From the NCBI GenBank assembly GCA_016841675.1, contig JAENYQ010000030.1:1-36859 (forward strand): 36,859 bases of DNA. Reading direction: 5' to 3'. This stretch comes from Desulfotomaculum sp. GTDB taxonomy: Bacteria; Bacillota; Desulfotomaculia; Desulfotomaculales; Desulfallaceae. Under the pieces are notes generated by a model. It saw only the letters and a list, made by a program, of their open reading frames with translations. It was not told where the DNA came from and made no database searches. A program made the position numbers and the translations under genes. Shown here one piece after another: positions 1-26,971 of this stretch. Position 1 is the first letter of the stretch. The number at the start of each line of letters is the position of its first letter.

Positions 1-82
1 GGGCTTTAAGATTCTTCGCTGCGCTCAGAATGACAGGCTTAATGACAAGGTTTTTTACTTCGTTGTATTCATAGCAATGACA
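1..82. repeat. Composite intergenic repeat, copy A (partial)
   Basis: Contains the core ATTCTTCGCTGCGCTCAGAA followed by TGACAGGCTTAATGACAAGG and ends in TATTCATAGCAATGACA. It is almost exactly the reverse complement of 13526-13607, with one difference seen in 82 positions. The core is itself palindrome-prone because TTCGCTGCG pairs with CGCAGCGAA in the opposite-orientation copies. It lies downstream of the minus-strand gene at 134-475. The copy may continue to the left of the window. Confidence 0.85.
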
Positions 83-1333: not shown

Positions 1334-1505
1334 TTAGATTCTTCGCTACGCTCAGAATTACCACGCGTACCCGCACCACGATAAACTAATACAATCTACC
1401 TTCGTCAAGATTAAGCTTGTCATCCTGAGCGTAGCGAAGGATCTAGTCTTTAAGATTCTTCGCTGCGCTCAGAATGACAGATTCGTTGTATTCATAGCAA
1501 TGACA
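1334..1505. repeat. Composite intergenic repeat, copy B
   Basis: Order of blocks: AGATTCTTCGCTACGCTCAG, AATTACCACGCG, CCGCACCACGATAAACTAAT, then TTAAGCTTGTCATCCTGAGC, a second ATTCTTCGCTGCGCTCAG core, and TATTCATAGCAATGACA. The same block order occurs at 5749-5965, and in reverse orientation at 25959-26194. It separates the Dps operon (minus) from the spore operon (plus). Confidence 0.85.
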
Positions 1506-5698: not shown

Positions 5699-5748
5699 AT
5701 AAAACAGCCATCTGCATAGGTTAGGGGGCTGCAAAACCATAAAAAACT

Positions 5749-5965
5749 AGATTCTTCGCTGCGCTCAGAATTACCACGCGTATCCGCACCACGATAAACT
5801 AATACAACTTACCGGTCGTTATTTATAATTGACAAAATTATTCACTCTGTTCAAATTAAGCTTGTCATCCTGAGCGCAGCGAAGGATCTGGTTTTAAGAT
5901 TCTTCGCTGCGCTCAGAATGACAGGCTTAAAAGGTTTTTCAATTCTTGTATTCATAGCAATGACA
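5749..5965. repeat. Composite intergenic repeat, copy C (full length)
   Basis: Has the same block order as 1334-1505, with the extra block CGTTATTTATAATTGACAAA that also appears (reverse complement) in 25959-26194. It ends in TATTCATAGCAATGACA. It sits between the end of the spore operon and a truncated DctP fragment. Confidence 0.87.
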
Positions 5966-5978
5966 ATCAAACATAATC

Positions 5979-6245
5979 GTGCCAGCCTTTATAGAACCGG
6001 TCGTTTTAAAGTTTGCTCATTACTTTCCTGCCACACACCCGGTAGAAACGGATATTGTTCAGCCTTGGGCAAAAGCTATTGAGGAAGCAACAGACGGTCA
6101 AGTACAAGTTAAAAGTTATCCTGGTGAAACATTGCTTAAAGCAGCTGAAACTTGTGATGGGGTTGTAAATGGTATTGCTGATGTTGGGCTTTCCTTTTTT
6201 TCACTATCAGTGGGGCCAGCCTCTTCTCCTATTCCCTGGGCTTAA
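5979..6245 (+). pseudogene. Fragment of a TRAP transporter solute-binding protein (DctP)
   Basis: The reading frame contains VVLKFAHYFPATHPVETDIV, then PWAKAIEEATDGQVQVKSYP and CDGVVNGIADVGLSFF. These are the N-terminal strand, first helix and following segment of DctP-family periplasmic binding proteins. Only about 75 of the usual 330 residues remain. The signal peptide and the last three-quarters are missing, and no ribosome binding site is present. The frame runs straight into an antisense fragment of a different gene at about 6229. No TRAP permease genes are nearby. Confidence 0.7.
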
Positions 6246-6487: not shown

Positions 6488-6587
6488 AAGGGAACCCAAT
6501 ACTGGTTTTCAGCGTCTAGAAATAATAAAGAATAAATGGGAGGTTCTTCCGTTGAAGAAAAAAGGGTTGGCAATTCTGTTAGTTGGA
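6488..6587 (+). repeat. Segment duplicated at 24102-24198
   Basis: AAGGGAACCC, CGTCTAGAAATA, a purine-rich stretch, then AAGGGTTGGCAATTCTGTTA and GTTGGA recur in the same order at 24102-24198. The copied part covers the leader and first dozen codons of the gene starting at 6552. The distal copy has lost the rest of the gene. Confidence 0.75.
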
Positions 6588-13471: not shown

Positions 13472-13525
13472 CTATTTATTTAAAAAAATGGTTATACCGT
13501 TAACTCAGTAAATGGTACAGCGTTG

Positions 13526-13637
13526 TGTCATTGCTATGAATACAACGAAGTGAAAAACCTTGTCATTAAGCCTGTCATTCTGAGCGCAGCGAAGAATCTT
13601 AAAGCCCAGATCCTTCGCTAACGCTCAGGATGACAGC
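13526..13637. repeat. Composite intergenic repeat, copy D
   Basis: Starts TGTCATTGCTATGAATACAA, contains GAGCGCAGCGAAGAATCTTA and ends CTCAGGATGACAGCT. Bases 13526-13607 are the reverse complement of 1-82 with one mismatch. It interrupts the minus-strand aromatic cluster between the aldolase-fold gene and uspA, and so may separate uspA-MFS-ubiX into its own transcript. Confidence 0.87.
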
Positions 13638-13678
13638 TCTCCCCAATGGGGATTACTGAGTAAAGGGAATAATCATGT

Positions 13679-14368
13679 TTAAAAATTCAACCCGGTTTTT
13701 AAAAGAAAGTAGTTCCATACCTTTTGAAACTGATTTTCCTTCCAAATCCCCGCATAGCCTGCTTCAATTTCTTCCGGCGGTAATCCCTTTGGTGAACCCA
13801 TTTGATAGGCACGGGTTAGTTTTTCAGCGTTATCTTCGAGGTAAATGGAGGCAAAGAAACAACTTTCTACACTCTCGGTGGCTACGGCACAACCGTGCCC
13901 ACGTATAATTACCACCCGCGCATCACCCAATGCTTTAGCGAGCCGGGTAGCCTTTTCAGCAGTGTTTATATGCCGGCTATCATCATGTACCGGCACACCC
14001 CGGGCAAAAATTGAGCCGTGGTATATAACGGGTATAAACTCTTTCTGCGCAATGAAAAGAGCAGTAGTAACCGGAGGATGCAGGTGCGCCACGGATAAAA
14101 CATCCGGTCGCTCTCGATAAATGGCCAGGTGAATAGGTGTCTCAGTAGGCGCGGGCCCGTTGCCCTCTAAAAAATTTCCGTCCAGATCTACCTTTACTAT
14201 ATCGTCCGGAGTGAGAGTGCACCGTGGCGCTCCCCAACTATTGATCAAAACCTGATTCGTGCCCGGGATACGTGCGCTGACATGACCGCTGAAATCAATC
14301 AACCCGACATATTCAAGCATGCGGCAGCACTGGGCTACCTTTACGCGTAGTTGTTTTATTTCGTCCAT
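13679..14368 (-). CDS. Class II aldolase/adducin-fold protein, possible decarboxylase
   Basis: This 229-residue protein has the class II aldolase metal site: HLHPP (H95, H97) and RGHG (H158), with the acidic E76 in TETPIHLAIY. IDFSGHVSARIP near the N-terminus is the phosphate/carboxylate-binding region. The family includes fuculose-phosphate aldolase but also non-phosphorylated-substrate enzymes such as 3,4-dihydroxyphthalate and hydroxy-carboxymuconate decarboxylases (established knowledge). Given the 4,5-dihydroxyphthalate decarboxylase-like protein and UbiD in the same cluster, a decarboxylase or aldol-cleavage role on an aromatic-derived acid is more likely than sugar metabolism. TTAGGAGG precedes the ATG. 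Confidence 0.85.
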   Translation of the reverse strand: MDEIKQLRVKVAQCCRMLEYVGLIDFSGHVSARIPGTNQVLINSWGAPRCTLTPDDIVKVDLDGNFLEGNGPAPTETPIHLAIYRERPDVLSVAHLHPPVTTALFIAQKEFIPVIYHGSIFARGVPVHDDSRHINTAEKATRLAKALGDARVVIIRGHGCAVATESVESCFFASIYLEDNAEKLTRAYQMGSPKGLPPEEIEAGYAGIWKENQFQKVWNYFLLKTGLNF

Positions 14369-24096: not shown

Positions 24097-24198
24097 AGAC
24101 AAAGGGAACCCCGTATCGGTTCCCTTCGTCTAGAAATAGACCCTTCAAAGGAATGTTCTCCGTTGCAGAAAAAGGGGTTGGCAATACTGTTAGTTGGA
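24097..24198 (+). repeat. Degenerate duplicate of 6488-6587, with a 14-bp stem-loop
   Basis: Bases 24102-24198 repeat, with changes, the leader and first codons of the stalk-domain gene at 6552: AAGGGAACCC, CGTCTAGAAATA, CCGTTG, AAAAAGGGGTTGGCAATACT and GTTAGTTGGA in the same order. The similarity then stops. The upstream part forms a stem-loop, AGACAAAGGGAACC (24097-24110) with GGTTCCCTTCGTCT (24118-24131), with one mismatch and no T-run after it. The rest of the duplicated gene is missing. Confidence 0.72.
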
Positions 24199-24243: not shown

Positions 24244-24927
24244 ATGAAAATTTTACTAGTGGAAGATGATAAAACAATCGCCTCCGGACTTGAATATTCG
24301 CTGCAGCAAGATCACTTTACCACGGTTCACTGCCTTGATGCTAAATCTGCTAAAAAGGTGTTGGCAGAAGAATTAAATCAATTCGCTTTATGCTTGTTCG
24401 ATTTATCACTGCCGGATGGCAGCGGCTATGAATTGTGCCAGATGGTGAAAGAGCGAAGCGATATACCCGTCATTTTTTTAACGGCCATTGATGATGAAGT
24501 TAATGTGGTGATGGGTCTTGACATGGGAGCAGATGATTATATTACCAAACCCTTTCGCATTCGTGAACTTCTTTCGCGGATCAAATCGGTTTTACGGAGA
24601 TACCATAAGCACACTCAGCCCAAAGAGATACTTGAAATAGAAAATGTCCGCATTAATACGCTGGAGGGAAAGGTTTATAAAAATGGGGTTGAAACTATCC
24701 TGACTGCTTTAGAATACCGCTTACTACTTATTTTCGCCAACCATATCGGACAAGTTCTCTCCCGCAATCAGCTTTTAGAGCGGATCTGGGATGTGGCCGG
24801 AGACTTCGTCAATGATAATACATTAACCGTTTACATAAAAAGGTTACGAGAAAAGTTAGAGGACCAGCCGCAAAATCCGACGCTAATCAAAACGGTGCGC
24901 GGTTTAGGCTATAAGGTTGGTGATTAG
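24244..24927 (+). CDS. OmpR-family response regulator
   Basis: This 227-residue protein has a receiver domain with the acidic pocket LLVEDDK, the phospho-acceptor D53 in CLFDLSLPDGSGYEL, and the conserved Lys in DYITKPF. The C-terminal winged helix (about 130-227) ends NDNTLTVYIKRLREKLEDQP, then IKTVRGLGYKV, as in OmpR/PhoB proteins. It pairs with the kinase 1 bp downstream and most likely controls the ABC exporter genes. Three 11-bp-spaced repeats upstream of the ATPase gene (26251-26280) are its probable binding site. Confidence 0.96.
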   Translation: MKILLVEDDKTIASGLEYSLQQDHFTTVHCLDAKSAKKVLAEELNQFALCLFDLSLPDGSGYELCQMVKERSDIPVIFLTAIDDEVNVVMGLDMGADDYITKPFRIRELLSRIKSVLRRYHKHTQPKEILEIENVRINTLEGKVYKNGVETILTALEYRLLLIFANHIGQVLSRNQLLERIWDVAGDFVNDNTLTVYIKRLREKLEDQPQNPTLIKTVRGLGYKVGD

Positions 24928-24928
24928 C

Positions 24929-25930
24929 ATGCTGCGTAATAGAGAGATTCAAATGCTATTATTAACGATGTGCGCGATTAGTTTAGTGGCTATAGCGATA
25001 GCGGCTTTTTTTTCGCTCGCGGCCGCGGTGCTCATTGGCATTACTTCTGTTTTGTTAATTGGCTGCAGCCTGTTATTGACGAGCTGGAGATATCGCGAAC
25101 TAGCCAAGCTTTCCGGCTATTTGCGGCAAATTAGTAGTGGTGATTATGCGCTTGATGTGCGTGATAATCGTGAAGGTGAGCTTAGTATTCTAAAAAACGA
25201 TATTTATAAAGTAACGCTAATGCTGTCGGAGCAGAGCTCACTTTTGCAGCAAGATAAAATCCGGCTCACCGATGCTATTTCTGACATCTCGCATCAGCTT
25301 AAAACCCCGCTAACCTCAATGATGGTGATGGCGGATTTGTTAAGTGATGCTAAATTGACGGTAACAAAAAGAACGGAATTCACCCGCAATATTCTGATTC
25401 AGCTGGAACGGATTGAATGGCTTGTTGCTTCATTATTAAAGCTTGCCAAAATTGATGCCGGCGCTATCCAATTCAAAAAAGATCAGGTAGTAGTGGCAAA
25501 GCTGATGCAAAAAGCGCTGGAGCCGGTTTTGATTCCGATGGACATTAAAGCCCAAACCGTGTCGATAAAAGGTGCCGATACCGTCTCTTTGATTGGTGAT
25601 TTTAATTGGACCGCCGAAGCCTTGATCAATATTTTAAAGAACTGTGTGGAGCACACTGCTGCAGGTGGCGAAATTGCCATATCTTTTGCCGAAAACGCGC
25701 TGTTTACAGAAATTATAGTTGCTGATAACGGGCCAGGCATCACCAAGGAAGATTTACCCTATATTTTTAAACGTTTTTATAAAGGCAAGAATGCCAACGA
25801 AGATAGCATTGGTATTGGCCTGGCTATGGCGCACAGCATTATAACCAGCCAAAATGGCGATATCGATGTGCAAAGTAAGCAAGCCAAGGGCACCCAGTTT
25901 CGGATTAAGTTTTACAAACAGATTATTTGA
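24929..25930 (+). CDS. Intramembrane-sensing histidine kinase (BceS-like)
   Basis: The ATG at 24929 is chosen because the AAGGTTGG site lies inside the end of the regulator gene. The product is 333 residues. Residues 9-52 are two membrane helices with almost no external loop, the layout of intramembrane-sensing kinases that rely on a partner ABC transporter to detect peptide antibiotics. The H-box is DISHQLKTPLTSM with H122. The ATPase domain has NCVEHT, VADNGPGI, IFKRFYKG and GIGLAMAHSI. It probably forms the sensor with the split FtsX-type transporter downstream. Confidence 0.93.
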   Translation: MLRNREIQMLLLTMCAISLVAIAIAAFFSLAAAVLIGITSVLLIGCSLLLTSWRYRELAKLSGYLRQISSGDYALDVRDNREGELSILKNDIYKVTLMLSEQSSLLQQDKIRLTDAISDISHQLKTPLTSMMVMADLLSDAKLTVTKRTEFTRNILIQLERIEWLVASLLKLAKIDAGAIQFKKDQVVVAKLMQKALEPVLIPMDIKAQTVSIKGADTVSLIGDFNWTAEALINILKNCVEHTAAGGEIAISFAENALFTEIIVADNGPGITKEDLPYIFKRFYKGKNANEDSIGIGLAMAHSIITSQNGDIDVQSKQAKGTQFRIKFYKQII

Positions 25931-25958: not shown

Positions 25959-26194
25959 TGTCATTGCTATGAATACACGAACCCTGTCATTCTGAACGCA
26001 GTGAAGAATCTAAAGATCAGATCCTTCGCTACGCTCAGGATGACAAGCTTAATCCTGCAAGGTGAATAATTTTGTCAATTATAAATAACAACCAGTAAGT
26101 CGTATTCATTTATCGTGGTGCGAGTACGCGTGGTAATTCTGAGCGCAGCGAAGAATCTTAAAACCCAGATCCTTCGCTGCGCTCAGGATGACAA
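25959..26194. repeat. Composite intergenic repeat, copy E (full length, reversed)
   Basis: Runs TGTCATTGCTATGAATACAC, CAGATCCTTCGCTACGCTCA, TTTGTCAATTATAAATAACA, ATTTATCGTGGTGCGAGTAC and GAGCGCAGCGAAGAATCTTA, ending CTCAGGATGACAAG. This is the inverted order of copy C. Slightly outside lie AGCTGTCAT (25956-25964) and ATGACAGCT (26211-26219), a 9-bp inverted pair that may be the true ends. It separates the two-component genes from the ABC transporter they would normally adjoin. Confidence 0.87.
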
Positions 26195-26250
26195 GACGCA
26201 ACGCTTTTAGATGACAGCTTCCCTCTGTGGTACACAAAGTGACTAGATTG

Positions 26251-26292: not shown

Positions 26293-26326
26293 AAAACTCA
26301 TCACCAACATCATGGAGATTTTACAA

Positions 26327-26971
26327 TTGGAAATTCTACGCACCGAACATCTGTCTAAAATGTATGGCAAAGGCGAAACCGCGGTAAAGGCACTTGATGA
26401 TGTCTCTTTGGCCGTCAATAAAGGTGAATTTATTGCCATTATTGGTCCGTCCGGCTCGGGCAAATCAACGCTTCTGCACATGCTTGGCGGGGTGGACATA
26501 CCGACAGCGGGCCGAGTATTAGTCGATAACACAGACATTTATCAACTTGATGAAACCCAACTAGCCATCTTCAGACGCAGACAAATTGGCCTCATTTATC
26601 AATTTTACAACCTTATACCGGTCCTAACGGTTGAAGAGAATATTACGCTGCCCTTGTTGCTTGATCAACATCAGGTGAATAAGAAACAGTTTGCTGAAAT
26701 CATCAACATCTTGAATCTGCAAGACCGCTTAAACTATCTGCCCAATCAGCTTTCCGGCGGGCAACAGCAAAGGGTCTCCATCGGTAGAGCACTAATTAGT
26801 CACCCGGCCATTATGCTGGCAGACGAGCCAACCGGTAATTTGGATAGTAAGAATAGTAGTGAAATCATCGACTTATTAAAAATGTTTAATAAAACCTATC
26901 ATCAAACCCTAATCATTATTACCCATGATGAACGAATTGCCTTGCAAGCCGACTGTTACCGGTCACTTTAA
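26327..26971 (+). pseudogene. ABC exporter ATPase, 3' end cut off by a transposon
   Basis: TTG at 26327 is preferred over ATG at 26312, because TGGAG (26313-26317) then sits 9 bp upstream and the product starts MEILRTEHLSKMYGKGETAV like its family (BceA/LolD type). The frame is 214 residues. It contains Walker A GPSGSGKST (40-48), the Q-loop YQFYN, signature LSGGQQQR, Walker B MLADEP and the switch His H200. Genuine sequence ends at D209 (base 26953). The transposon then adds CYRSL and a stop. The missing 18 residues lie at 31973-32029. All catalytic motifs survive, so the truncated ATPase might still work. Confidence 0.9.
26949..26953 (+). repeat. Target-site duplication, left copy (CCGAC)
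   Basis: CCGAC immediately precedes the transposon's TG terminus and is repeated exactly after its CA terminus at 31968-31972. The bases one step further out differ, so the duplication is 5 bp. Confidence 0.92.

Follow-up and report, generated by a model that had tools for sequence, protein, structure and literature searches.

The window, a stretch of 36,859 nucleotides from Desulfotomaculum sp., is the whole of contig C75 of the source genome (G000; 3,844,584 bases or 3.84 Mb, 162 contigs) and contains five copies of a composite palindromic repeat (Table 1). A first-pass annotation had placed these copies in the window and described them as sharing blocks in a common order and in both orientations, all of which was confirmed. 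Twelve hairpin units are present at ≤6 mismatches, and the arms of separate copies can be nearly identical (99% over 82 nt between 1–82 and 13526–13607; 93% over 97 nt between 5749–5845 and 26062–26158). Copy 4 (about 13487/13488–13677) is an intact MITE with no listed ORF ≥100 aa inside; copies 1, 2, 3 and 5 lack intact ends. Copy 3 has no TIRs and its ends coincide with REP boundaries. Together with copy 2 and others, it starts or stops exactly at REP edges within unique flanks. Copy 5 does lie between a kinase and an exporter gene, as annotated, namely a histidine kinase (24917–25930) and an ABC-transporter ATPase (26312–26971). Its decayed MITE interior runs on to approximately position 26237 and the TIRs have been lost.

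Several other features were observed in the window. A palindrome adjoining copy 2 (GGGGACAGGC ... GCCTGTCCCC, 1546–1600) recurs at other loci (L182, L183), and two linked direct repeats (6488–6587 and 24102–24198; 78% and 93%) lie 17.6 kb apart. Synteny with the congener G002 stops at the repeat, both at 5700–6200 of the window and at L077:8750–8900, as if the repeats were rearrangement points. A search of Rfam gave no match across the window.

Table 1. Composite repeat copies in the window and their component features.
Feature	Position	Strand	Description
Copy 1	9–82	(-)	REP hairpin 9–35 and satellite tag 64–82; cut by contig start
Copy 2	1336–1505	(+)	GGTA-tagged hairpin 1336–1362 (-)
Copy 2, remainder			TGTC heterodimer 1418–1444 (+) / 1453–1479 (-); satellite tag 1487–1505 (-); without TIRs
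Copy 3	5749–5965	(+)	GGTA-tagged hairpin 5749–5775 (-), then spacer
Copy 3, remainder			TGTC heterodimer 5863–5889 (+) / 5897–5923 (-); satellite tag 5947–5965 (-)
Copy 4, left 8-bp target duplication	13479–13486	(+)	TTTAAAAA
Copy 4, TIR end A	13487–13511	(+)	AATGGTTATACCGTTAACTCAGTAA; consensus CATGG...
Copy 4, two internal satellite TGTC tags	13526–13564	(+)	TGTCATTGCTATGAATACA at 13526; TGTCATTAAGCC from 13561
Copy 4, internal TGTC REP heterodimer	13573–13635	(+)	13573–13599 (+), GNA loop; 13608–13635 (-), GTTA loop
Copy 4, TIR end B	13653–13677	(-)	CATGATTATTCCCTTTACTCAGTAA on minus strand
Copy 4, right 8-bp target duplication	13678–13685	(+)	TTTAAAAA
Copy 5	25959–26237	(-)	Satellite tag 25959–25977; REP units 25985–26011 (+) and 26019–26045 (-)
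Copy 5, remainder			REP units 26132–26158 (+, GGTA tag) and 26167–26193 (-)

The hairpin core occurs at 456 sites in the source genome at ≤3 mismatches, with none in a reversed-pattern control, and the sequence TATTCATAGCAATGACA, annotated as a terminus, at 172 sites (control 2). Chance or an assembly artefact is ruled out by these controls, though many contig ends fall inside the repeat. When 5749–5965 was used as a genome-wide query, full-length matches were recovered down to 77% identity (40 of 302 candidates scored). Ends and block order were consistent across the genome, so that the outcome that would have spoken against a repeat family, copies consistent in neither respect, did not occur. 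Of 32 clusters that are flanked by genes to left and right, one overlaps an ORF ≥150 aa; the flanking genes are in tandem in 25 cases, convergent in three and divergent in four. A gene-carrying transposon between hairpin pairs was considered and rejected: of nine ORFs examined in or next to hairpin pairs, eight have family matches, with no transposase among these (AMP ligase, MetK, ABC ATPase, YitT, transketolase, hexapeptide/serine acetyltransferase, YIEGIA and bPH), and one is unmatched.

The composite is made up of three layers: TGTC-tagged REP hairpins, satellite tags that are stepped outward from them, and an enclosing MITE in a minority of loci. Two longer repeats were observed alongside. 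A composite of ~330 bp (L077:12397–12728 versus G000:C42:4658–4989, C56, C63, C120, C149 and C78) retains 92–96% identity between species, which is above most syntenic gene matches, and a separate family of ~150 bp (L075:12889–13044; G000:C146, C40, C154 and C56) is 81–86% identical between species.

The hairpin unit and its head-to-head dimers

The REP unit reads TGTC-ATYCT-GA-GC-GNA-GC-GA-AGRAT-CT and is predicted to fold into a stem of five pairs that is followed by a 2x2 internal loop, a further two pairs and a loop of three bases. At positions that were left open in the search, the third stem pair is T-A in 68 and C-G in 71 units of the source genome and broken in four of 143, while the inner stem pair is G-C in 115 or A-T in 15 (n = 134). 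In 129 of 134 units, G and A close the loop, the middle base of which is free (C, T, A or G). GA/GA occupies the 2x2 loop in 166/173 units of the source genome and 43/44 of G002; the corresponding 109/109 in foreign loci is not an independent figure since these letters were already in the selecting pattern. All of these substitution counts are per copy and not per independent event. A-T pairs occupy stem positions one and two, as the search patterns themselves demanded. As for the unpaired ends, the tag is TGTC in 165 and CGTC in five units, with GGTA the next commonest (19), and nearly all units have a CT tail, after which comes T, G or A. The hairpin is under structural constraint.

The stability of a single hairpin is ordinary by nearest-neighbour calculation (DNA, −1.9 to −2.7 kcal/mol; z = 0.38 to −0.82). 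As DNA motifs, GNA loops and tandem G-A pairs are unusually stable, and their presence suggests that the hairpin is read as folded single-stranded DNA. The two strands of the REP are not equivalent, since the opposite strand would carry a TNC loop.

The commonest arrangement is a pair of facing units with tags outward ("+-", 11/41 clusters), and it is contained in many of the other arrangements. Each dimer combines one T-type and one C-type hairpin, in 14/14 cases in the source genome and 14/14 in G002 (28 heterodimers). The dimer is predicted to fold into a single long stem (DNA, −29 kcal/mol, z = −10; RNA, −53 kcal/mol, z = −11.5), and its RNA hairpin is strong on both strands (−53 and −47 kcal/mol). 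The dimer of copy 3 is likewise predicted to fold into one long hairpin. At some loci of both species (L075:9941–10230 and its orthologous site in the source genome, L182; L083; L056), REP dimers are nested in an outer palindrome with 7-bp steps (AGTCAGTAGTCAGGAGTCAG ... CTGACTACTGACTCCTGACT).

At ≤1 mismatch, the core was found in seven of 41 genomes (the source genome and 40 relatives), with 309 copies in the source genome, 86 in G002 and 1–3 in five others; two further congeners hold none and one, respectively. In a scan for spread beyond the genus, a heterodimer pattern matched at least 59 stretches, and the records listed include Mucilaginibacter, Lachnospiraceae, Nevskia, Alphaproteobacteria, Burkholderiales, Brocadiales, Pirellulales, Phycisphaerae, Poribacteria and Clostridiales, among others. 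All 22 genomes that were picked for having the pattern, many of them metagenome-assembled and from several phyla, contain 6–554 units each at ≤2 mismatches (control 0). Three plasmid records gave weak or partial hairpin matches and phage records gave none. The G-A build of the hairpin is common to different phyla and suggests that the REP is recognised in folded, single-stranded form.

Satellite tags on the TGTC side

The sequence TATTCATAGCAATGACA had been taken for a transposon terminus. It proved instead to be a satellite tag (the 26-bp satellite), one of a series stepped outward from the TGTC side of the hairpin; the real end of the element, where present, is farther out, at 13487 and 13677 of the window. 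In the source genome, 66 satellite tags lie upstream and two downstream of 160 units, and the distances peak at 12, 26 and 42 bp on account of shared copies. The corresponding figures are 14 and 0 for 45 units in G002, and four and 0 for 60 units in other foreign loci. These counts, like those for Lachnospiraceae and for truncated iterations below, omit units less than 70–100 bases from a locus end, repeated contexts and units close to N runs.

Shortened tandem copies, composed of TGTC, part of the 5′ arm and a short local sequence, precede many of the units in Lachnospiraceae. A bare TGTCA lies 8–60 bp upstream of 69 of 203 Lachnospiraceae units and downstream of 15 (windows of 8–60 and 0–60 bp were used, and the flanks of a given locus are not independent observations). 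Forty of the 69 upstream tags fall at 18–24 bp, compared to 9.1 expected if uniform, and 27 at the peak of 19–21 bp. Across all sets, a truncated iteration is present on the tag side of 34/378 units, and its retained part most often ends at positions 12–14, the foot of the loop (19/34). Phased arrays of truncated TGTC tags, with a pitch of mostly 18–24 bp, were seen to run outward from REP units at L097, L105, L112, L114, L116, L134, L339, L345, L349, L351 and other Lachnospiraceae loci.

Ordinary replication slippage at the hairpin, without a tag-specific enzyme, is a fairly probable source of the satellite tags. Sequence next to hairpins is known to undergo tandem duplication, and the array at L345 has the original flank as its outermost copy. 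If symmetric, slippage predicts iterations on both sides of the hairpin. This asymmetry may be tested on single units only, since dimers have no free tail side. Truncated iterations were found on the tag side of eight and the tail side of one of 109 single units (p = 0.039), and then at four tag sides and no tail side among 63 single units in 60 further stretches, which come from two of the genomes already sampled; one locus of that batch, L346, repeats the already counted L103 but is a dimer and not among the four. The narrowness of the 19–21 bp peak also counts against slippage. Nevertheless, slippage confined to the one foldable strand could still yield a bias to the tag side.

A more tentative proposal is that the TGTC tag acts as an anchor, to which copies of the tag, part of the 5′ arm and the local flank are added repeatedly in the outward direction, with a pitch of ~20 bp (two helical turns) and on one foldable strand. 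Such a process would build the phased arrays of Lachnospiraceae and would leave the TATTCATAGCAATGACA "terminus" as a fossil. If true, an active TGTC anchor would be a new form of directional REP growth, achieved either by a tag-recognising enzyme or by hairpin cleavage and repair on one strand; a tag-specific enzyme may be involved but is not required. In the explanation favoured below, the satellite tags would arise from events that halt within the 5′ arm once the hairpin has folded, for example polymerase stalling, or cleavage of the hairpin loop by an SbcCD-like nuclease followed by repair. The satellite tags are a physical trace of events at the tag. Among the results presented here, the phased tags are the surprise and merit a study of their own.

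The enclosing MITE and the movement of the repeats

From common outer sequence in the flanks of composite copies, TIRs of ~25 bp were recognised, with 182 ends in the source genome at ≤3 mismatches and none in the control. End A (CATGGTTATACCGTTAACTCAGTAA) and end B (CATGATTATTCCCTTTACTCAGTAA) point inward and have CATGRTTATWCCSTTWACTCAGTAA in common. The MITE is ~110–370 bp in length, commonly 164–225 bp; measured between the TIR cores, with these included, the elements span 99–359 bp and are built of REP units and spacers. The first-pass annotation had recommended a search for target duplications, and these were found: 17 of 29 TIR-bounded elements at the examined loci of the source genome have an exact 8-bp flanking repeat (19/29 at ≥7/8 positions), whereas in 2000 trials with shuffled partners the mean was 0.64 and the number never exceeded four. 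Exact repeats are concentrated at a length of 8 (17), each of the other lengths between 4 and 12 giving no more than one. Bases of the duplications are 98% A or T, and 12 of the 29 elements have no exact duplication. A letter-by-letter reading of 26 of the 29 elements identified a REP dimer, or what remains of one, in all 26, and the other three match the 217-bp composite. Like MITEs, the TIR-bounded elements are short, without coding capacity, bounded by TIRs and flanked by a target-site duplication. The description of the repeats as MITE/REP composites was correct in kind given the true TIRs and 8-bp duplications; as applied to the window, an intact MITE is limited to copy 4, one of the five, the others being interior-only or decayed.

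Outside the source genome, G002 has two such MITEs, one with an 8-bp duplication that was read by eye. None of twelve sites compared in G002 was a clean empty site, each being diverged, rearranged, shared or differing in an already diverged context. Locus L014, a candidate for a MITE free of REPs, reads by eye as a decayed REP-bearing copy. MITE ends were absent from viral contigs and, in plasmid records, limited to 18-base matches in three Vibrio records.

The best explanation, which is held to be quite probable, is that the composites are mosaics of a TGTC-tagged REP and a heterodimer-carrying MITE with CATGRTTATWCCSTTWACTCAGTAA ends. The REP would be recognised as folded single-stranded DNA and would spread mainly as head-to-head heterodimers. 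A transposase acting in trans, presumably of the DDE type, would cut and paste the MITE and leave an 8-bp duplication of A/T-rich target DNA. The REPs would then amplify partly as passengers of the MITE and partly on their own. The transposase may belong to an IS4-like family, a guess made from the end sequences. A transposase sharing the termini, which the annotation had proposed to look for, was not encountered: there is no multi-copy transposase among 619 ORFs in the examined loci of the source genome (~0.51 Mb of overlapping stretches, a partial sample), and no autonomous element with the MITE TIRs was seen in those stretches, viral contigs or plasmids.

That all composites are decayed MITEs, with REPs having no mobility of their own, is rather unlikely. 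Copy 5 keeps MITE interior past its REP block and copies with one TIR exist (e.g., L002), both as expected from decay. However, in a sample picked by the hairpin alone together with the window, a TIR lies within 350 bp of nine of 41 clusters and none is near the other 32; the MITE alone therefore does not account for the spread of the REP. Decay is also at odds with copies in unique flanks that begin or finish exactly at REP edges, and REPs are plentiful in genomes with no such TIR at the examined loci. Because nine of 41 clusters are near a TIR while other copies are bounded exactly by REP edges, the REP and the MITE overlap and neither fully explains the other.

A RAYT-type Y1 (HUH) transposase that acts on tag and hairpin, the mechanism of GTAG REPs, is an unlikely cause of the spread of the present REPs. 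The overall build is the same (a tag and hairpin, in head-to-head dimers), 17 Y1_Tnp matches are present in the source genome, and some copies are bounded exactly by REP edges with no evident duplication. Against this, none of 52 Y1 loci (17 of the source genome, five of G001/G002 and 30 of the 79 matches in 22 other REP-bearing genomes) has a hairpin on both sides of the gene, and three have any hairpin in the examined flank. Several Y1 transposase-like genes of ~200–330 aa in the source genome (L036–L043) were noted to have no hairpin of the TGTC REP kind in the examined flanks. Five of the 22 genomes have no Y1 match despite 48–170 units each, but most of the assemblies concerned are drafts or derive from metagenomes. 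Within the genus, G002 has 86 units and two Y1 matches while G001 has no units and three matches; G003 has no matches. By these counts, Y1 enzymes may not be required for the spread of TGTC REPs.

A role in cis (in transcription termination or mRNA stability, or as a nucleoid or gyrase site) is very unlikely to be what maintains the repeats and multiplies them by selection. Although their position outside ORFs ≥150 aa in 31/32 clusters and a dimer RNA hairpin that is strong on both strands would suit such a role, only 3/32 clusters lie between convergent genes, copy numbers in the genus (309, 86, 1 and 0) are unlike those of a needed site, and true transposition duplications are present.

Relation to known REP and MITE families

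The GTAG REPs and REPINs that are associated with RAYTs resemble the REP described here in being short, intergenic, 5′-tagged hairpins with inverted pairs and a high copy number, as far as the available portion of that source describes them (PMC6006769). Unlike the GTAG REP/RAYT REPtron, the tag is TGTC and no Y1 locus of the 52 is flanked on both sides. A precedent for a REP inside a MITE is provided by QMITE2 of Coxiella burnetii, a MITE of 150–190 bp that contains a REP and has direct repeats of 7–11 nt (PMC5896051, available text). QMITE2 differs in that its REP is of the GTAG type, and satellite tags are not reported in that portion of the text.

The closest relatives are the CGTC-tagged REPs (PMC3733652; Di Nocera, De Gregorio and Rocco 2013). 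According to the available text of that account, their tag is CGTC, often TGTC and also CCTC, with AT at the stem foot, a stem of 8–9 bp, a loop of 4–5 nt and an unpaired tail that is mostly CCA. Head-to-head dimers predominate, often as heterodimers and sometimes within other palindromes, and the REPs "apparently lack a dedicated transposase" (PMC3733652). With these, the present REP shares a TGTC/CGTC tag, predominant head-to-head dimers and no linked transposase (here for Y1 loci only), and the finding that no Y1 gene is flanked on both sides agrees with the 2013 statement (PMC3733652). It differs in having a CT tail rather than CCA, tandem G-A mismatches in the stem and a GNA or GNNA loop. 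Its stem has nine positions with two mismatched and its loop 3–4 nt, so that the fit to 8–9 bp and 4–5 nt depends on how mismatches are counted. The five phyla given for CGTC REPs in the available text do not include Firmicutes (PMC3733652), in which the present REP occurs. Two further features, a MITE carrier that has target duplications and the satellite tags, are absent from the available text of that account, its figures aside (PMC3733652). Since the CCA tail was not found, the REP is described as allied to the CGTC superfamily and not as a member of it. A text search with the printed hairpin sequence found no paper on this repeat; figures are not text-searchable, and the result is not proof that the repeat is unpublished.

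What moves CGTC/TGTC REPs is a question that has been posed in print, in the available text of the 2013 account (PMC3733652). For a subset, the source genome provides one answer, a MITE that carries them and is flanked by 8-bp duplications. Its copies show where a small palindrome, found in many bacterial phyla, was moved and extended.
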